Below, piece by piece: positions 54,261-64,000 of a DNA stretch of 64,000 bases. Where the stretch lies: the NCBI RefSeq assembly GCF_001861355.1, contig NZ_MASN01000017.1, positions 1-64,000 of the forward strand, read 5' to 3'. The notes below the pieces were generated by a model that was given only the letters and a program-made list of their open reading frames with translations, ran no database searches and was not told the origin of the DNA. Source of the stretch: Natrialba sp. SSL1 (lineage in GTDB: Archaea > Halobacteriota > Halobacteria > Halobacteriales > Natrialbaceae). Each line of letters opens with the position of its first letter. Positions within the stretch are counted from its first letter, which is position 1. The position numbers were made by a program, and so were the translations under genes.

Positions 54261-56798
54261 ATGTCTCAGTCTCAACCACCCGCTTCAGACACAGCAGCCC
54301 CTCCCCTCACCGGCACGCTTCACATCCTTCCCTTCGGCGGCGGCTCGCTCGCCGCGCGTGTCGCAGAAATCTACTCGAGTACCCTCAAGCACGAACCAGT
54401 AGATGGCGACCCGCGGAACGTCCTGGTGCTCAAGCGGTTGCCGACGGCGATCGACGAGTTTGCGGCGTCGTTGCGCGAGGAAGTCGGACTCGAAGGGCGA
54501 CCGAACGTGAAGTCCTTGCCTCGGCACGCGACGGCGGTCGTAGAGGAAGCAGAGCCGGAGTTGACGCGGTTGTCCTACGAGGAGCGGATCGAATTTCTCG
54601 CGCGGGTGCTCGACGGCTACGACTGGTCGTCGTACTTCGAGCGGGCGAGCGAGCACGATTCGTTCGGTCGGGACGTGGGGCAGTTGTTGTTGGATGCGAC
54701 GTGGAACGGTGGGTTCGGTGTGGATGTGGATGTAGATGCAGATGCAGATGCAAATGCGAATCTGGATGTCGATGGATCTGTGGACACCGAGAGTGCTGGA
54801 AGCAGCAAGAGTGACGGCGCCGACACGACGGGCACGGACGACGCCGGTCACGACTACGACGACTACCTCCGGGAACTGGCCGACGTCAACGCTTCCTTCC
54901 ACGACCACCTCGCCGAGCGCGATCTGGCGGAGCAGGCCCAGACGATCGAACGCGCGATCGCGGCACTCGAGCGAGAGGCGATTCGCGAACGGATCGAGCG
55001 CGAGTTCGACGCCGTGCTCGTCGTCGAGTACGAGGAGTGTGGCGACCTCGACCGAGAATATCTGCGCGCACTCACGCGGAACGTCGACCTGATCTGCGTC
55101 GCCGAGGAGCACGCGAGTATCGAGCGGACGAAGACCGAGGCGGGATCGGTTCGGCGATTTGCGGACGAACTCGAGATCGTCGATCACACCGCTGACGGCG
55201 CGAAGAAGGGAGAAACCGACGCGATACCCGGTGTTGCCTCGGATGGCGGAACGGCAGTAGCACAGCCGACCACGGTGTCCGAACCGGGACGAGTCGGTCA
55301 ACCGTTCGGCGCGTTTCTCGCGACCGGACGGCCGACTCGCCGGGGAGAGAACGGCGAGTCTGCAGAAACGGAGAGTCACGATTCGACCACCGCTGCGCGC
55401 GTAATCAGCGAACCCACGCTCGATCAGCAAGTCGAGACCGTCGCGAACGAGATCGAGTATCTTCGACAGGAGCAGGGCCTCGAATACGAGGACGTGGCCG
55501 TCCTGCTCCGCTCTATCGGGAACCCTGCGCCGCGCGTTCGAAGGGTGCTCCAGCACGCCGGGGTGCCGACGGCCTCCGCCAGCGTCAATGGCCTCGAGCA
55601 GGATCTCGCCGTCCGGGAACTACACGCACTCGCCCAGTACCACATCGACGACCGCGAGCGGGCCTACGACCTGCTCGCGGCGCGGGTGCCGGACCTCACC
55701 GAGGATCTCGTGCAGCGCTGTGTCGTCAGGAACTCGGTTTCGAAGAGTCTGAAGCGCTGGATCGTCACGACGGACCTCAAGCGTCGAATCGCCGAGGACG
55801 CCGACCCGATCGATGCCAGAGAACAGTTTCGAAATGTCTCCCGGCTCCTCTCGATCGCCGAATTCGTCGACGAGCAGGACATCCTCGCGGGCGACTGGAT
55901 CCAGTTCGTCACCATGCTCGAGCGGGCGATCACCTACGACGCGCCATACGCTCATACGGCCGAGGTCGCCGTCCCCGAAGGCGGCGTCACCGTTGGCGAT
56001 GTGGGGCTCGTAAAACACGATAGCCGGCGCGCCGTCTTCCTGCTTAACGTCGTCGATGGCGAATATCCGGGGAGCGAACCCCTCTCCCCGCTCTTTCCGA
56101 CCGCCTGGATCAAACGGATGGACGGCTACCCGGCCGTCACGAATCCGAGTCCGGAGGCCGTCGCGGAGACGTACGCCACCGTCAACGTCGACGAGATCAC
56201 CGACAACGCGTTCGAACGCTATCACGCCGAACGGACGCGCCGCCAGCTCGCGATCGGTACCCGCGCCGCCGAGGAGCACCTCTATTTCTGTACCTACCGC
56301 CAGACGGACGGCTCGGTTGGCCGCCTGCAACACCGATCACGGTATCTGCACGCGATCGACGAACACCCACATCCCGCGCTCTCGCTCGCTGACCTCGACG
56401 GAGCGGACGTTCCTGATCGCGACCTCTACACCCTCGGCAGCGCCTCCGCCGAAATCCTGTCTCAGCCCTGGAACGCCCTCGAAACGGTCCAGGCCGAAGC
56501 CAGCACCGGCGGCGAGGTCGCACTCGAGTCCACCGAAGAAACGCTGGCTGCGATCCAGCGGGTACTCGAGGACAGCGATAATGTGGACTCGCGGTTCGAG
56601 CGGGCGGTCGAGACGCAGTTCGACCTGGCGAGAGGGGCGATTCGACCGGAGAGTGGTGAGAGCGGTGGTAGTGGCGGTAGTAGTGAGAGCGGTAAGTGTG
56701 GTGAGAACGGTGAGAGTGACGGTAGGAGGCGAGTAGATGACGATGGACGGGAAGATGACGACAGACTGGGCGGAAACGGCGGAGGTGAGACGCGATGA
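54261..56798 (+). CDS. AddB-like inactive helicase subunit (UvrD-type C-terminal motifs)
   Basis: An 845-residue protein that looks like the helicase half of AddB. The N-terminus has a worn P-loop (ILPFGGGSLAARV, 22-34, no Lys or GKT), a region of Asp/Ala repeats (DVDVDADADANANLDVD, about 153-172), and from about 385 the UvrD-type C-terminal motifs: YEDVAVLLRS (IV, about 409), GVTVGDVGLVKHD (V, about 575) and ERTRRQLAIGTRAAEEHLYF (VI, about 656). With no Walker A it should not hydrolyse ATP. It ends in a Ser/Gly/Glu-rich tail (about 795-845), and its TGA overlaps the start of the next gene by four bases. Confidence 0.65.
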   Translation: MSQSQPPASDTAAPPLTGTLHILPFGGGSLAARVAEIYSSTLKHEPVDGDPRNVLVLKRLPTAIDEFAASLREEVGLEGRPNVKSLPRHATAVVEEAEPELTRLSYEERIEFLARVLDGYDWSSYFERASEHDSFGRDVGQLLLDATWNGGFGVDVDVDADADANANLDVDGSVDTESAGSSKSDGADTTGTDDAGHDYDDYLRELADVNASFHDHLAERDLAEQAQTIERAIAALEREAIRERIEREFDAVLVVEYEECGDLDREYLRALTRNVDLICVAEEHASIERTKTEAGSVRRFADELEIVDHTADGAKKGETDAIPGVASDGGTAVAQPTTVSEPGRVGQPFGAFLATGRPTRRGENGESAETESHDSTTAARVISEPTLDQQVETVANEIEYLRQEQGLEYEDVAVLLRSIGNPAPRVRRVLQHAGVPTASASVNGLEQDLAVRELHALAQYHIDDRERAYDLLAARVPDLTEDLVQRCVVRNSVSKSLKRWIVTTDLKRRIAEDADPIDAREQFRNVSRLLSIAEFVDEQDILAGDWIQFVTMLERAITYDAPYAHTAEVAVPEGGVTVGDVGLVKHDSRRAVFLLNVVDGEYPGSEPLSPLFPTAWIKRMDGYPAVTNPSPEAVAETYATVNVDEITDNAFERYHAERTRRQLAIGTRAAEEHLYFCTYRQTDGSVGRLQHRSRYLHAIDEHPHPALSLADLDGADVPDRDLYTLGSASAEILSQPWNALETVQAEASTGGEVALESTEETLAAIQRVLEDSDNVDSRFERAVETQFDLARGAIRPESGESGGSGGSSESGKCGENGESDGRRRVDDDGREDDDRLGGNGGGETR

Positions 56799-57805
56799 CG
56801 CCATCATCGTCTGTTGAAAGTGAGGCAGACGACGAGTCGGCTGCGCAAGCGGATCAAACCGTCGTCACCGCCGACGCGCTCGCGACACACCTCGTCTGCC
56901 CGCGCCAGTACGAGTTCGCGTTCGAACGCCCGCTCTCGGCGCGCGAGACGAGCACTGACCGGGTTCGCGACCGCCGTCGGCAACTGCTCCGGCGGTCGAT
57001 TATCGCCGGACTCCGCTCGGAGGCGAATGCAGACGAGGAGCGTGTCGAGGCTGCACTCGAGTGGCTCGATCACGAGTGGCGACAGGCCAGCGCTGGTGAC
57101 CGGCAGCCCTACATCGCAGACGCACAGGAGCAGTACGATGCGGACGCGTTGGCGGCTGCGGTGGAGGCGTACTTCGAGAACGGCGGGCACGAGCATGCCG
57201 AGCGGCTGGTCGAGGCGGACACCGTGGTCAGCTACGAGCGCGACGACGTCCGATACGAGGCGACCGTCGACGCCGTGGTCGAGCGCGACAGGGGCTATCT
57301 CGGCATCAGGTACGTCCCGACGCTACACGGCGTCTTGCAGGTAAGCTGGTCTGACACGCACGTCCGGGAGTTCGTGGACGGCCAGTCGTACTATCCGCGC
57401 CAGATCGGCAGTTTCGTCAGGGCGGGTGTTGCGATTCGGGGGCTGAAGGCCGAGTACGGCTTCGATCTGCCCTGTGACTTCGCCTACGTCGCGCCGCTGG
57501 CTGAGAGTCGGCCGGCCTACGAGTCCGAGTCGGGCGTGCGCGTCGACGTGGAGCAACGGCACTTCGAGGACGCATTCGAGGAGGAGACGCGGGACCTCGT
57601 GGACCTGATCGAGGAGCGAGCCGCAGCGATTGTCGACGGGAAAACCGACCCGCGGGCGTGGCGGTTCGAGAAGATCATCGACTCAGCCTGCCAGTACTGC
57701 GCCTATCGGGACGCCTGTCCCGATCGGATGGGTGCCGAACTCGCGTTTATCGACCGGGAACCGACTCGCGGTGAGCGTGGTGGGCGAGGTGAGATCGATG
57801 ACTGA
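56795..57805 (+). CDS. Cas4/AddB-nuclease-like Fe-S protein, probably inactive
   Basis: A 336-residue protein of the RecB/Cas4 nuclease fold. Four cysteines (C35 in LVCPRQYEF; C299, C302 and C308 in CQYCAYRDAC) match the iron-sulfur pattern of Cas4 and AddB. D159 (ATVDAVV) is the first active-site acid, but the expected Asp/Glu-x-Lys pair in the next strand is replaced (YLGIRYVP, about 168-175), so nuclease activity is doubtful. Q203 and Y199/Y200 partly keep the later QxxY-type motif. It overlaps the gene before it by four bases and the next by eight. Together with the upstream gene it corresponds to the two halves of bacterial AddB. Confidence 0.7.
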   Translation: MTPSSSVESEADDESAAQADQTVVTADALATHLVCPRQYEFAFERPLSARETSTDRVRDRRRQLLRRSIIAGLRSEANADEERVEAALEWLDHEWRQASAGDRQPYIADAQEQYDADALAAAVEAYFENGGHEHAERLVEADTVVSYERDDVRYEATVDAVVERDRGYLGIRYVPTLHGVLQVSWSDTHVREFVDGQSYYPRQIGSFVRAGVAIRGLKAEYGFDLPCDFAYVAPLAESRPAYESESGVRVDVEQRHFEDAFEEETRDLVDLIEERAAAIVDGKTDPRAWRFEKIIDSACQYCAYRDACPDRMGAELAFIDREPTRGERGGRGEIDD

Positions 57806-60800
57806 GCGTGAGACAATGAGTGAGCGTGAGACAACGACTGATACCGCGGACGCTGTCGCACCGACCAGTGAGACGGACGCCGAACCCGACGCCGCAGCTC
57901 TCGAGCCGAAGGGCAACCAGCCGGCCGTCATCGACGCGACCGGCGGCGCACACACCGTCGAGGCCGTCGCCGGCTCCGGCAAGACGACGACGATGGTCAA
58001 GCGCCTGCAGGCCGAAATCGAGGAGCGCGACGTTGCGCCCAACCGGCTGCTGGTGCTCACCTTCGCGAACGAAGCCGCCCACACGATTCAGGAGAAACTC
58101 CGCGAGGCGCTCGGTCCGCAGGTCGCCTTCGATATCGACGTCTACACCTACCACTCGTTCAGCTCGAAGCTTCTGACCGAGTACGCCTACCACGTCGGCG
58201 TCTCGCCCGAGTTTGACCTCGTCACCGAGGAAGACCGTCCGCAACTGATCGAGTCCGTCTACGAGGAGGTCGACTTCTCGTTCGTCGCAGCCGGCTCGCC
58301 CTCCGCCGGCGGCACGAGCGACCAGACGCTCTCCGCGCTCACCTCGTTCATCGAGGCGATGCGCCGCGAAGCCGTCTCTCCCGCCGATATCCGCTCGTAT
58401 CTCCCCAGCGACGAGGACCTGCGAGACCTGCTCGGCCTCGTTACCGACCTCGAGGAGATGGCCCATCAGGTCATCAACGTCGACGCGAACGACCTCTTCG
58501 GGAACGCGGACGACCTCGCCGACCGCTGTGACCGCCTGCCGCGAGTCTACCGCGCGAAAGCCAGCCAGTTCGACGGCGGCGGTCGGGTTCACTCGGCCGT
58601 TAGCGCCCACCTCGAGGCGATGGCCGAAACAGCCGAGAACATGGCCGACCACCTCCGAACTGAATCCGAACTCGAGTGGCAGGCGTTTCGGCTCCCCGAG
58701 GCGATGTTCGAGGGCGAGCGGGGGCCACTGACCTCGATCACGCAGACGCCGATGGGGCGGCTGTCGAACTACGTTCACATGCTCCGGCGGGCACGAGCGT
58801 TCGTCGGCGCGTACGAGGCCTATCTCGAGGCGCTCGAGGAGCGCAACGCCTTCGACTACGACGAACTGATCCACCGGACCGTCGACTTGCTTCGCGACGA
58901 GCGCGTCCGTGACGATATCCTCGCCGAGTGGGACGCCGTCTACTGCGACGAGTTTCAGGACACGGACGAGTCTCAACTCGAGTTGGTCGAGGAACTGCGC
59001 GACGGCCTCGATATCATGGTCGTCGGCGACAGCGATCAGGCCATCCACGAGTGGCGCGGGCAGGATCCCGAGAACATGTCGAAACTGCCCGAGTCGTTCG
59101 AGGAGATCGGCCTGGACCTGAACTTCCGGTCGCGCCAGCCGATTCTCGATCTGGCGACGAATCTCGATCCCGACAAGGACGAGATCGAGGCGTACAAGGA
59201 GCCGAACCCGCCCAGCGTCGTCACAGTCGACAGCGAGGGCGAGCGCACGCCGGCGCAGGTGAGCACGACAATTTCACACCTCCTCACGGGTCGGTTCGAG
59301 GACGTTCCAGAGCGCAAACTCGAGGACATCGCGGTACTCGTCCGCCAGAACCAGAACGCCCGCGATATCGCGGCTCAGCTGGATCGCGACAGCATTCCCT
59401 ACACCCTCTCGAGTGACGCCTCTGGCGAACTCGGCCACGGCGTGCGGACGGTGCTGTCGTACTTCCGGGTCCTCGTGGAACCCGGCGACGATGTGAGCTG
59501 GCAGCGCGTCCTCTTGCATCTCTATCGCGTCCCCGAGGTCGATGTGGATACGTTGCTGCGAGCCGGCGAGACCGTTCCGGCGGGGTACGACGCGCTCGCA
59601 GAGCCGGCCGCCGAACTTCGCTGTCCCGACCGCGTTCGCGAGGCGCTCACGGACTACGACACGCTTCAGTCGGTCTCGGACACCCACTCGATCTCCGAGC
59701 TCTACCGGCATTTCAAGCGCGAGACGCGCATCGACTGGTTCCTCCGGGAACACGACCGGGACGCCCTCGCCAACGTCGAGCGGCTGATCGAGGCGTTCAA
59801 CGACAGTCCCGTCCAGTCCGAACTAACACCGGCGTTCGTCGACTACCTGGAGCGCCAGGCCCACCTGCTCTCGGCCGACGACGAGACGGCGACCAGCCCC
59901 GGTTCGCAGTCCGAAAATGCCGTCGACGTCATGACGATCCACCAGGCGAAGGGCCTCGACTTCGATACCGTTCTGCTCCCCTTCCTCACCGAATCCGAGT
60001 TCGGCCACATCACCCTCGCGAACTACCAGCGAGACCTCTACCGCTACGACGTGCTCGTCGACGACGTGCAGGGCGAGCTGGCCGATCCGCTGCGGGCCGA
60101 CTGCAGCGACGACCAGATCGCAGAGGAGTGGCGCGTCCTCCACGTCGCGCTCACCCGTGCGAAAGAGCACCTGTTCCTCTTCGGCAACGACGTCGAGGAG
60201 CAAGGGCCCGGTGCCGACATGCTGGACGAGCACCTGCCCGGCGAGCGCAGCGAGACGCCGATCCACTGGTCCGCCGAGGGGCCACGCTTCCCCGTCTGGA
60301 ACGCACTCATGGACAGCTACGACGAGATCTCGGCCGACACACCCGACGCCGTCAGGGACTACACGGACGCCGTCAACCGCGGCGTCGACGAGGACCCGGG
60401 GACGATCACGTACTACCAGACCGAGGTCTCGACCGACGAAGCGCTCGAGACGGTACTCGAGTTCGCCGACAGGGTCGTCGCCGGGACGCTCGCTGATGGC
60501 GACAGCGCTTCAAATCCGAACACCGCCCGCTTCGCCGACGCCCCCCTCGGTACCAGCGTCGACGTCGAACTTGCCCGCCAGCACAGCCACACCGCACTCG
60601 AGTCCGTCCGCAACTGCGAGCGAAAGCACGTCCTCGATCACGTGGTGGATGCGTTCCCCGACCCGATTCCAGCTACCGGCGGGGAAGCAGAAGTGACGCA
60701 AGCCGACGTGGGTTCGCTCTTCCACGACGTCGCCGAACTCGCCTACTGGCGCGGCTACGACAGCAAAGCCGAGTGGCGCGACGCCTGTGAATGGGTCGCC

Positions 60801-61364
60801 CGCAGCCGCGACCTGACGACCGCACTGGAGCCGGCACTCGAGTGCATCGATCGCTACTTCGAGACCGATGTGCCGGAGTGGCCGGCGGTCGGGGCTGAGG
60901 TGCCGATCGCCGTCGAGGGCGACGATATTGAAGATCTGGACGGCGATGCCATCGCGGATATTGAGGGCGACGTGACCGGCTACGTCGACAGCGTTCGCCG
61001 CCACCCAGACGGCGGCCTCGTCGTGCTCGACTACAAGACGAGCCAGGCACAGAAGGACCTGGAGACGAGCCACCAACTCGAGCTCTACGTCCGTGCCTGT
61101 CGGGACCGCTTCGACGAGCCGATCGGCCACGCGGGCTACGTCTACGTCGGCGACGCCGGACCAGCAGTCCAGCTGTTCACGGTCGACGAACTGGCCACGC
61201 TGTGGGAGTCGGTACTCGAGGACCTGTCGGCAGCGGACGGTTCGTCGTTCGCGAACGCGACGCCGGGACCACACTGTCAGTTCTGTCCGCACCGATCGCT
61301 CGGCTGTTCCGAGGGCGAAGACGAGTCACCGTCTCTGGATGCGTTTCAGATCGATGGCCAGTGA
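57798..61364 (+). CDS. AddA-like UvrD helicase with Cas4/RecB-type nuclease domain
   Basis: A 1188-residue superfamily 1 helicase fused to a nuclease. The helicase motifs are complete: Walker A AVAGSGKTTT (K62), motif II CDEFQDTD (D384, E385), III VVGDSDQAIHEWRG, V IHQAKGLDFD and VI HVALTRAKEHLF. The C-terminal nuclease has D1064 (GYVDSV), D1078/K1080 (LDYKTS) and HQLELY, and Fe-S cysteines C940, C1160, C1163 and C1169. It should unwind and cut DNA ends, as bacterial AddA does. The start ATG at 57798 overlaps the preceding stop by eight bases. It is the active engine of this three-gene unit. Confidence 0.82.
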   Translation: MTERETMSERETTTDTADAVAPTSETDAEPDAAALEPKGNQPAVIDATGGAHTVEAVAGSGKTTTMVKRLQAEIEERDVAPNRLLVLTFANEAAHTIQEKLREALGPQVAFDIDVYTYHSFSSKLLTEYAYHVGVSPEFDLVTEEDRPQLIESVYEEVDFSFVAAGSPSAGGTSDQTLSALTSFIEAMRREAVSPADIRSYLPSDEDLRDLLGLVTDLEEMAHQVINVDANDLFGNADDLADRCDRLPRVYRAKASQFDGGGRVHSAVSAHLEAMAETAENMADHLRTESELEWQAFRLPEAMFEGERGPLTSITQTPMGRLSNYVHMLRRARAFVGAYEAYLEALEERNAFDYDELIHRTVDLLRDERVRDDILAEWDAVYCDEFQDTDESQLELVEELRDGLDIMVVGDSDQAIHEWRGQDPENMSKLPESFEEIGLDLNFRSRQPILDLATNLDPDKDEIEAYKEPNPPSVVTVDSEGERTPAQVSTTISHLLTGRFEDVPERKLEDIAVLVRQNQNARDIAAQLDRDSIPYTLSSDASGELGHGVRTVLSYFRVLVEPGDDVSWQRVLLHLYRVPEVDVDTLLRAGETVPAGYDALAEPAAELRCPDRVREALTDYDTLQSVSDTHSISELYRHFKRETRIDWFLREHDRDALANVERLIEAFNDSPVQSELTPAFVDYLERQAHLLSADDETATSPGSQSENAVDVMTIHQAKGLDFDTVLLPFLTESEFGHITLANYQRDLYRYDVLVDDVQGELADPLRADCSDDQIAEEWRVLHVALTRAKEHLFLFGNDVEEQGPGADMLDEHLPGERSETPIHWSAEGPRFPVWNALMDSYDEISADTPDAVRDYTDAVNRGVDEDPGTITYYQTEVSTDEALETVLEFADRVVAGTLADGDSASNPNTARFADAPLGTSVDVELARQHSHTALESVRNCERKHVLDHVVDAFPDPIPATGGEAEVTQADVGSLFHDVAELAYWRGYDSKAEWRDACEWVARSRDLTTALEPALECIDRYFETDVPEWPAVGAEVPIAVEGDDIEDLDGDAIADIEGDVTGYVDSVRRHPDGGLVVLDYKTSQAQKDLETSHQLELYVRACRDRFDEPIGHAGYVYVGDAGPAVQLFTVDELATLWESVLEDLSAADGSSFANATPGPHCQFCPHRSLGCSEGEDESPSLDAFQIDGQ

Positions 61365-62404: not shown

Positions 62405-62566
62405 ACTAGATGGTCGACGCGAGCGGCGTTCGCACTGTTCCCGAAACCTATCGCCTCTTTAAGTACTCTGTGAGAGAGTCGTTGCCTGCTCATGGGTGTC
62501 GAATCCGTTCTCGTCACAGCCCGTACCTCGCGGTGTCGACCCCTGATCACAACGGAGAAATTGGAG

Positions 62567-62638
62567 TGGACTCGCCGGGATTTGAACCCGGGGCCTCTCC
62601 CATGCCAAGGGAGTGATCTACCTCTGATCTACGAGCCC
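62567..62638 (-). tRNA. tRNA-Ala (GGC anticodon)
   Basis: Read on the minus strand from 62638, the sequence folds as a full tRNA: acceptor GGGCTCG pairs with CGAGTCC (one G-T), the T-arm has GGGTTCAAATCCC, the D-arm has AGATCAGAGGTAGATC and the anticodon stem is CTCCC/GGGAG with loop TTGGCAT, giving anticodon GGC, which reads GCC. The discriminator base is A. CCA is not encoded. Length is 72 bases. Confidence 0.95.
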
Positions 62639-62676: not shown

Positions 62677-63001
62677 CCCTCGAAATCGTCGGGTCGGCCC
62701 TGTCGTTGTCACACAGGGGTACTCGAGTACACCACCGTTTCCCACATCCCAACCACGCCCACGACGGTGGCCGGTTCACGACGTGCACCGACTGTGACCG
62801 CTGTCTAGAAACCCTTTAGTCCGTGCCGCGGGAAGCGACGGTGGGAAGCGCACGGCCGCAAATCTGACAGTGCCACTCGCTTGGGTGGCTTGGGATTGCG
62901 GAAGTGCATCTTGCACGGAGCCGGATTGCGGTCGACTGGGTCATGCGATCCAGTGCGAGCGCTATCCATCCGAGCGGTCAGTGCGGTTCCTATCCTCACC
63001 A
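62677..63001 (+). other. Long rps15 leader region with repeats and hairpins
   Basis: No gene is supported in these bases. A promoter-like gaaacccttta (62808-62818) points right, with rps15 starting at 63002, so the transcript would carry a leader of about 160 bases. The region has hairpins GCCAC/GTGGC (62872-62876, 62885-62889) and GTGCA/TGCAC (62904-62908, 62912-62916), a pair CCGTGC/GCACGG (62821-62826, 62850-62855), and direct repeats GGGAAGCG (62830, 62843) and GGATTGCGG (62893, 62923). It may be a structured RNA leader, but could be chance. Confidence 0.45.
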
Positions 63002-63472
63002 ATGGCACGAATGCATACCCGCCGTCGTGGCTCGTCCGGTTCGGACAAGCCATCGGCAGACGAACCACCGGAGTGGAGCGACGTCGACCCAGCAGATGTC
63101 GAAGAACGGGTCGTCGAACTGGCAGCACAGGGGCACGACCCGAGTCAGATCGGCATCAAGCTGCGTGACGAAGGCGTCACCGGCACCCCCGTCCCTGACG
63201 TGAAGCTGGTAACCGACAAGAAGATCACCGAGATTCTCGAGGAGAACGACGCCAAGGCGGACGTTCCCGAGGACCTTCGGAACCTGATGGAGCGTGCGGT
63301 CCGACTGCGCGAGCACGTCCAGGAGAACCCACAGGACTACCAGAACAAGCGCGCGCTGCAGAACACGGAGTCGAAAGTTCGTCGCCTCGTCGACTACTAC
63401 CGAGGCAACGAGCTCGAGCCGGACTTCACGTACTCCTACGAGGTTGCGGTCGACCTCCTCGAGGAGCACTGA
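63002..63472 (+). CDS. rps15: 30S ribosomal protein S15
   Basis: A 156-residue archaeal/eukaryal-type S15 (S13e/uS15). It starts MARMHTRRRGSSGSDKP, as in all archaeal S15, and has the N-terminal extension of about 60 residues plus the bacterial-S15-like core (DLRNLMERAVRLREHVQENPQDYQNKRALQNTESKVRRLVDYYRG, about 95-139). It binds 16S rRNA on the small-subunit platform. The ATG at 63002 is clear; an open frame reaching further upstream is incidental, since the conserved start is here. A structured leader may precede it. Confidence 0.96.
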   Translation: MARMHTRRRGSSGSDKPSADEPPEWSDVDPADVEERVVELAAQGHDPSQIGIKLRDEGVTGTPVPDVKLVTDKKITEILEENDAKADVPEDLRNLMERAVRLREHVQENPQDYQNKRALQNTESKVRRLVDYYRGNELEPDFTYSYEVAVDLLEEH

Positions 63473-63579: not shown

Positions 63580-64000
63580 ATGTCCACGAACGGCCACCCG
63601 GATCAGGAATCGGACACCGAGTTCGGTTCCGACGCCGACATCGCTGTGACAGCCGCCACCGCCATCGAGAGCGCCGGCTTCGTCCGCGTCATCACGCGGG
63701 CCGACGGCGACGCCCTCGCGGCCAGCGGCCTGCTTACGGCAGCACTCTCGGTGACTAACACGCCGTTCCAGGTGACCGTCGGTCGGACGATCGCCGACCG
63801 AACCGAGCGCGCAACGCGCCGGACCAACACCGACGCCGACGCCGACGCTGACACTGGCGACGACAGTGACGAACTGACCGTCGTCTTCGGCACGGTCGAC
63901 GAACCGGCGCGCAAGCACGCCATCCGCCTCGATTCCGACGAGCGGCCGGCCACGCTCGCAGCAGCCGATACGGTTCGCGAACTCGGTTCGACGGGATCGG
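63580..64000 (+). CDS. DHH/RecJ-like protein, N-terminal part (3' end outside window)
   Basis: The first 140 codons of a protein that runs off the window. VRVITRADGDALAASGLLTAAL (about 35-56) resembles the first DHH motif of RecJ-like nucleases/phosphodiesterases (usually DADGIASAALL). In haloarchaea a RecJ-like gene usually follows rps15, which supports the call. An Asp/Ala/Thr repeat (TDADADADTGDDSDE, about 86-100) marks a loop. The metal-binding Asp set is only partly visible, so identity is tentative. Confidence 0.65.
   Translation, partial: MSTNGHPDQESDTEFGSDADIAVTAATAIESAGFVRVITRADGDALAASGLLTAALSVTNTPFQVTVGRTIADRTERATRRTNTDADADADTGDDSDELTVVFGTVDEPARKHAIRLDSDERPATLAAADTVRELGSTGS

Follow-up and report, generated by a model that had tools for sequence, protein, structure and literature searches.

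The first 64,000 nucleotides of contig NZ_MASN01000017.1 from the haloarchaeon Natrialba sp. SSL1 (positions 1 to 64,000, i.e., the whole stretch analysed, hereafter the window) carry at 54261-61364, on the + strand, three overlapping genes that an initial annotation had interpreted as an AddAB-like helicase-nuclease with its AddB subunit split between the first two genes. These form a real and conserved unit composed of an inactivated helicase relative (gene 1), a free-standing iron-sulfur (Fe-S) nuclease fold that has lost its active site (gene 2), and a superfamily 1 (SF1) helicase fused to an intact nuclease (gene 3). The features of the locus are as follows (aa, amino acids; nt, nucleotides):

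54261..56798, + strand: gene 1 (845 aa), inactivated UvrD-like helicase, a partner of the AddB/AdnA/RecC type without the nuclease domain
54330..54359, + strand: worn P-loop site of gene 1, PFGGGSLAAR, residues 24-33, from the alignment of gene 1 homologues
55014..55064, + strand: motif II site of gene 1, where VLVVEYEECGDLDREYL replaces DEFQD and aligns with VVILSGYYEFRPVERHI of AddB (hhalign, motif tally)
56795..56798, + strand: 4-nt overlap of genes 1 and 2 (-4 or -8 in 72/79 named loci)
56795..57805, + strand: gene 2 (336 aa), Fe-S PD-(D/E)XK domain encoded as a separate protein, catalytic residues lost here (Pfam PDDEXK_1, Foldseek, active-site tally)
56897..56899, + strand: Fe-S cysteine C35 of gene 2, invariant
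57308..57316, + strand: lost active site of gene 2, R172-Y173-V174, which reads D-Y-K in active relatives (alignment, active-site tally)
57689..57718, + strand: Fe-S cysteines C299, C302, and C308 of gene 2, invariant in all 99 sequences tallied
57798..57805, + strand: 8-nt overlap of genes 2 and 3 (-4 or -8 in 69/73 named loci)
57798..61364, + strand: gene 3 (1188 aa), a helicase motor of the SF1A type with an intact Fe-S PD-(D/E)XK nuclease in the same chain (Pfam, homologue motifs)
57972..57986, + strand: Walker A of gene 3, GSGKT, residues 59-63 (sequence motif)
58947..58967, + strand: motif II of gene 3, DEFQDTD, residues 384-390 (sequence motif)
60141..60161, + strand: motif VI of gene 3, HVALTRA, residues 782-788, with LHVALTRA beginning at 781 (sequence motif)
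60585..61307, + strand: nuclease domain of gene 3 with C940, H976, D1064, D1078, K1080, Q1093, C1160, C1163, and C1170 (PF12705 at 930-1167, invariant columns)

The overlaps of 4 and 8 bases described in the initial annotation are exact. Genes 2 and 3 come after gene 1 in 20/20 loci fetched from relatives, and a scan of named genomes yielded 80 haloarchaeal loci, 73 of which contain all three genes, with 72 of these 73 trios ordered, adjacent, and on the same strand; the 20-locus and 73-locus sets have some genomes in common, and in the 7 loci without a full trio the sequence ends at a contig edge. The sole exception, a decayed locus (L116, 145-16378, the same place as L175), has gene 3 broken in two and an Argonaute gene split in two frames, with genes 1 and 2 intact. 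With 20/20 and 72/73 loci of other genomes keeping the order, the adjacency lies beyond chance, contrary to the refuting case of unrelated neighbours named in the initial annotation, and both it and the coupled overlaps persist down to about 30% identity. Homologues of gene 1 were detected in 24/99 sampled genomes of Halobacteriales, along with one marginal match. A fused AddB-like form of genes 1 and 2, the search for which had been proposed, was not encountered in the locus set, in which suspicious long frames were checked; those in G382, G442, and Halopiger proved to be upstream read-through. No relative of gene 1 was found in the viral contigs searched, leading us to reject viral carriage.

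For gene 1, Pfam gave only a sub-threshold UvrD_C match, and single-sequence PDB searches with gene 1 or gene 2 returned nothing useful. Neither the GKT P-loop nor DEFQD occurs in any homologue (0/101), with motif II resembling VLAVEFEE..xLDR instead of DEFQDTD, consistent with the earlier description of a helicase relative with a worn P-loop. The predicted structure of gene 1 (predicted local distance difference test [pLDDT] 77) has AddB as its top PDB match (4cej_B; E 7e-18; template modelling score [TM-score] 0.53, the highest among the PDB matches listed for this model), i.e., the structural resemblance that had been suggested as a check was found. At the profile level, gene 1 aligned collinearly with residues 14-557 of archaeal AddB (hhalign 98.5%, E 2.5e-15), compared with profile-profile values of 98.1% for UvrD-Cas4 fusions and 96.1% for gene 3; a profile search by sequence likewise retrieves AddB from the PDB (E 4e-8). 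Motif loss, structure, and profile matches thus identify gene 1 as an inactivated helicase of the AddB/AdnA/RecC type. In Natrialba, gene 1 additionally carries an Asp-rich insert, DVDVDADADANANLDVDG, at about residues 152-193 (54714-54839) and a Gly/Ser/Glu/Asp tail at residues 797-845 (56649-56795); both are missing in most other homologues and are predicted to be disordered.

The product of gene 2 has a PD-(D/E)XK fold (Pfam PDDEXK_1, E 5e-6; predicted model pLDDT 82) with a four-cysteine cluster of the Cas4 type. Foldseek comparison of the model with the PDB placed AdnA best, then RecE, Cas4, and Exo5, with RecC at lower significance, and in profile comparison gene 2 could be aligned over its length to the Fe-S nuclease domain carried by UvrD-Cas4 fusions (E 3e-10). 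In a tally that counts some genomes twice, the catalytic H-D-D-K set is intact in 46/99 gene 2 sequences and lost in 53/99, including that of the window (DxK to RxV or similar), with all four Fe-S cysteines kept in 99/99 regardless of active-site state. One change on the unrooted gene 3 tree is enough to account for the live and dead states. Relative to two close Natrialba species, the ratio of nonsynonymous to synonymous substitution rates (dN/dS) for gene 2 is 0.11 and 0.13, and the values for genes 1 and 3 are similar. Because purifying selection acts on gene 2 despite loss of the active site, its product in the window lineage is a maintained, RecC-like pseudonuclease. Two other identities were considered and rejected: a decaying pseudogene, owing to the dN/dS values and invariant cysteines; and, for the window, a free-standing active Cas4-like nuclease, owing to the lost D/K. 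The free-standing Fe-S nuclease fold of the initial annotation stands with respect to fold and cysteines; the loss of the catalytic D/K, which that annotation had not noted, makes this protein a pseudonuclease, and in this it resembles RecC more than AddB. In RecC, which provides the precedent, an inactivated nuclease domain guides a DNA strand (PMC1185551).

Gene 3 matches UvrD-helicase (E 9e-54), UvrD_C (1e-30), and PDDEXK_1 (3e-21) in Pfam, and its complete SF1 motifs and nuclease residues D1064, D1078, and K1080 are as originally annotated; so too are cysteines C940, C1160, and C1163, the fourth being C1170 rather than C1169. Helicase motifs, nuclease motifs, and the four cysteines are kept in 92/92 homologues. 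This C-terminal cysteine set is present in the AddB, AdnA, and UvrD-Cas4 sequences examined, and was not found in those examined for archaeal AddA, E. coli RecB, and Nocardia AdnB; the trio therefore differs from AddAB, AdnAB, and RecBCD in having an Fe-S nuclease on its motor subunit. In the helicase tree, a clade of AddA and RecB (98/97) excludes gene 3, and a grouping of gene 3 with AddA is rejected (approximately unbiased [AU] test, p 0.005). Gene 3 groups with the single sampled AdnB (97/93), a tentative placement in view of the long branch and odd composition of AdnB. The UvrD-Cas4 fusions, for which one archaeal family was sampled, form their own clade (100/100) separate from that of gene 3 (100/99); the gene 3 profile scores highest on stand-alone members of these fusions (335 bits). 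Its NCBIfam AddA score is 143 bits versus a cut-off of 708. Deep relations were not resolved in the nuclease-domain tree. The proposed likeness of gene 3 to AddA is thus abandoned, and the sequence evidence argues that the trio is not AddAB by descent.

Nor does the trio represent the AddAB of this genome, since SSL1 also encodes a separate, unsplit AddB (1059 aa) and AddA (1218 aa) with an 8-nt overlap (contig C38:2775-9603; L157), in which the AddB active-site DYK and Fe-S cysteines are present. Unsplit AddB was detected in 19/99 genomes of Halobacteriales, and its frequent 73-78% identity between families suggests that it has been transferred between them and is probably mobile. Mutual exclusivity of AddAB and the trio was considered and rejected, with both in 3/99 genomes versus about 4.6 expected (no signal). 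Elsewhere in SSL1 (C52:124903-127914; L158:8904-11915), a 1003-aa Dna2-like protein combines an N-terminal Fe-S PD-(D/E)XK nuclease with an SF1 helicase. Other archaea of the phylum carry stand-alone UvrD-Cas4 fusions (L139-L142, L176) or genuine AddB-AddA pairs (L143-L146); long methanogen-type matches considered as candidates for unsplit AddB were half UvrD-Cas4 fusions and half true AddB-AddA pairs.

The gene 1 family is found in 39/43 sampled Natrialbaceae versus 38/191 other genomes of Halobacteriales. The clade with dead gene 2 is typical of Natrialbaceae, in which it is near-core and chromosomal; a few Natrialbaceae also hold a live gene 2 copy, and the dead type is present in a few instances beyond Natrialbaceae. 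None of the named loci of this clade has Argonaute, PLD, or ATPase genes alongside, and a search of the SSL1 genome found no Piwi gene. The live-gene-2 sister clade is patchy and often plasmid-borne, with 16 plasmid records, 14 of them with near-full-length gene 1. Ten named loci of this clade from many haloarchaeal genera (L104, L105, L113, L114, L117, L118, L123, L127, L128, L130) show the order Argonaute, PLD protein (AgaP), gene 1, gene 2, gene 3; the Argonaute is of the long-A type (PADLOC pAgo score of 1082 bits, with DEDX residues) and is located 1.1-2.2 kb upstream of gene 1. Its usual companions in these loci are a PLD protein (HTK/GSAN motifs) whose gene stops 6 nt short of gene 1 and, upstream, a divergently oriented AAA ATPase (DUF4143). 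Across 234 genomes, 7/7 Argonautes with at least 86% identity sit about 2.2 kb from gene 1. Restriction-modification (R-M) and Mrr genes also occur near some live-clade trios. A variant without Argonaute (L095, L096, L100, and L177, the latter a Haloprofundus plasmid) comprises an ATPase, the trio, an OB-fold protein, and, except in L100, a PLD protein; in L177, a DNA methyltransferase and a DEAD/DEAH helicase resembling type III R-M adjoin it. The gene between trio and PLD in such plasmid-type loci was rejected as an Argonaute, as it encodes an OB-fold protein sharing the N-terminal OB domain of Argonaute.

By architecture, then, the trio holds as a split AddB-like partner plus a motor: the initial equation of genes 1 and 2 with a divided AddB-like subunit is borne out by the structural match of gene 1 and by profile alignments to residues 14-557 of AddB and to the start of its nuclease domain. 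From gene order, motifs, active-site loss, selection, fold similarity, and genomic context, we infer a complex, with its activity, polarity, and biological role, as follows. It is reasonably likely that the three proteins form one DNA-end-processing helicase-nuclease working like AddAB, AdnAB, or RecBC. Gene 3 would supply the ATP-driven 3'-5' motor and carry the only working nuclease. Gene 1 would act as the inactivated helicase partner, holding and scanning the complementary strand, and gene 2 would be its detached nuclease domain, dead here and serving a structural or strand-guiding role like that of the dead domain of RecC. The complex would thus unwind and trim DNA ends. In Natrialbaceae, it would most likely unwind and trim DNA that is linear or broken, in preparation for RadA-dependent repair and/or to degrade foreign DNA; among other haloarchaea, the form with an active gene 2 is often attached to an Argonaute/PLD immune locus. 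Double-strand-break repair, the role originally proposed, is thus not the only likely one, as relatives lie in Argonaute/PLD defence loci.

Such an enzyme would act like AddAB, AdnAB, or RecBC, yet it fails the defining features of each. With AddAB/RexAB it shares an AddB-type inactive-helicase partner (the top structural match of gene 1), an Fe-S nuclease domain, a motor-nuclease, and the B-before-A gene order; it differs in that its partner is split, gene 3 lies outside the AddA/RecB clade, the motor also bears Fe-S cysteines, and gene 2 of the window is dead. Like the trio, AdnAB has two UvrD-like subunits with PD-(D/E)XK domains, and AdnA, the best match of gene 2, has Fe-S cysteines and is encoded before AdnB. 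AdnA, however, is a single chain with Walker motifs and an active nuclease, whereas the partner in the trio comprises two proteins with no P-loop and a dead nuclease, and the sampled AdnB lacks the Fe-S cysteines of gene 3. RecC combines a dead helicase with a dead nuclease fold, leaving a single nuclease in the motor (PMC1185551), as in the window trio; in contrast, RecC is a single chain, the trio operon contains no RecD-like or further helicase gene, and gene 2 keeps its four Fe-S cysteines. UvrD-Cas4-like fusions (PMC5704561) resemble gene 3 as SF1 helicases with an Fe-S PF12705 nuclease and give its highest profile score, but they are encoded singly, whereas gene 3 is accompanied by genes 1 and 2 and is separate in the tree. 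APAP (long-A Argonaute plus the PLD protein AgaP; PMC11442185) is related by context in that part of the sister clade lies directly downstream of ago-agaP; in the window trio, by contrast, gene 2 is dead and Argonaute, PLD, and ATPase partners are all absent.

Several observations weigh against an AddB-like end-processing enzyme. (i) UvrD/PcrA structures match the gene 1 model at E-values close to that of AddB, and the term "AddB-like" therefore rests on the higher TM-score, the collinearity, and the shared degeneration. (ii) The alignment of gene 2 to the AddB profile covers only 51 residues, at the start of the C-terminal nuclease domain (E 2.5e-7). (iii) The SSL1 genome holds other candidate end-processing enzymes, namely NurA and the real AddAB. 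(iv) Across the whole family, the association of relatives with Argonaute speaks for defence rather than repair.

This last point underlies an alternative that we regard as unlikely for the trio, namely that it is primarily an immune (anti-plasmid/anti-virus) helicase-nuclease, unwinding and cutting up foreign DNA and supplying single strands or guide fragments to Argonaute in relatives, of which the Natrialbaceae form would be a stand-alone version. The spacing of Argonaute and AgaP-type PLD genes relative to gene 1, the nearby R-M and Mrr genes, and the plasmid records all agree with such a role, as do the tested immunity of APAP (PMC11442185, where the sole reference is to "a helicase-encoding gene" in the vicinity of some operons) and the finding that RecBCD shapes pAgo guides (PMC10269773). 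However, no scanned locus of the window clade contains these partners, SSL1 has no Piwi gene, and near-core chromosomal carriage in Natrialbaceae is unlike that of a typical defence gene. For the window lineage, housekeeping end processing or DNA degradation is thus favoured, though not strongly, over dedicated immunity. Far less probable is that gene 3 suffices by itself as a fusion of the UvrD-Cas4 type, its neighbours genes 1 and 2 being degenerate and of little function: the 335-bit score on stand-alone fusions that occur without partners is set against the fetched complete loci, in which genes 1 and 2 accompany gene 3, the coupled overlaps, and the strong purifying selection. About as improbable is the strict form of the initial interpretation, orthology of the trio to bacterial AddAB with a divided addB, which would fit the AddB-like gene 1, the gene order, and the two nuclease folds, but which is largely refuted by the tree and the cysteine pattern, in addition to the low NCBIfam score and the unsplit AddB-AddA pair.

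Returning to a three-protein end-processing enzyme, it is conceivable, if somewhat doubtful, that haloarchaea evolved their own RecBCD-type line, with three proteins and an Fe-S nuclease fold in each half; one branch would have become firmly tied to Argonaute/PLD immunity, for which it would unwind DNA and provide guides or targets, and the other would have lost the second nuclease, like RecC, to yield a near-core Natrialbaceae end processor. No description of the trio was found in the open-access literature searched, and the available text of a Haloferax repair review names UvrD and Mre11-Rad50 and no AddAB-type enzyme. Should the trio be one enzyme, it would constitute an archaeal counterpart of AddAB/RecBCD, not listed in that text, in which the two domains of the partner are separate genes; the occurrence of live and dead gene 2 in one family would also make the inferred step from AddAB to RecBC, i.e., loss of the partner nuclease, testable there. 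The Argonaute linkage of the sister clade makes its trio a concrete candidate for the helicase-nuclease serving haloarchaeal Argonautes, whether by opening DNA or by producing guides.

Downstream of the trio, the window contains tRNA-Ala(GGC) at 62566-62638, a ribosomal protein S15-like gene at 62870-63472, and an apparent RecJ/DHH-type gene at 63580-64000 (S15 and RecJ named by eye), and the corresponding flank in Natrialba hulunbeirensis is similar.

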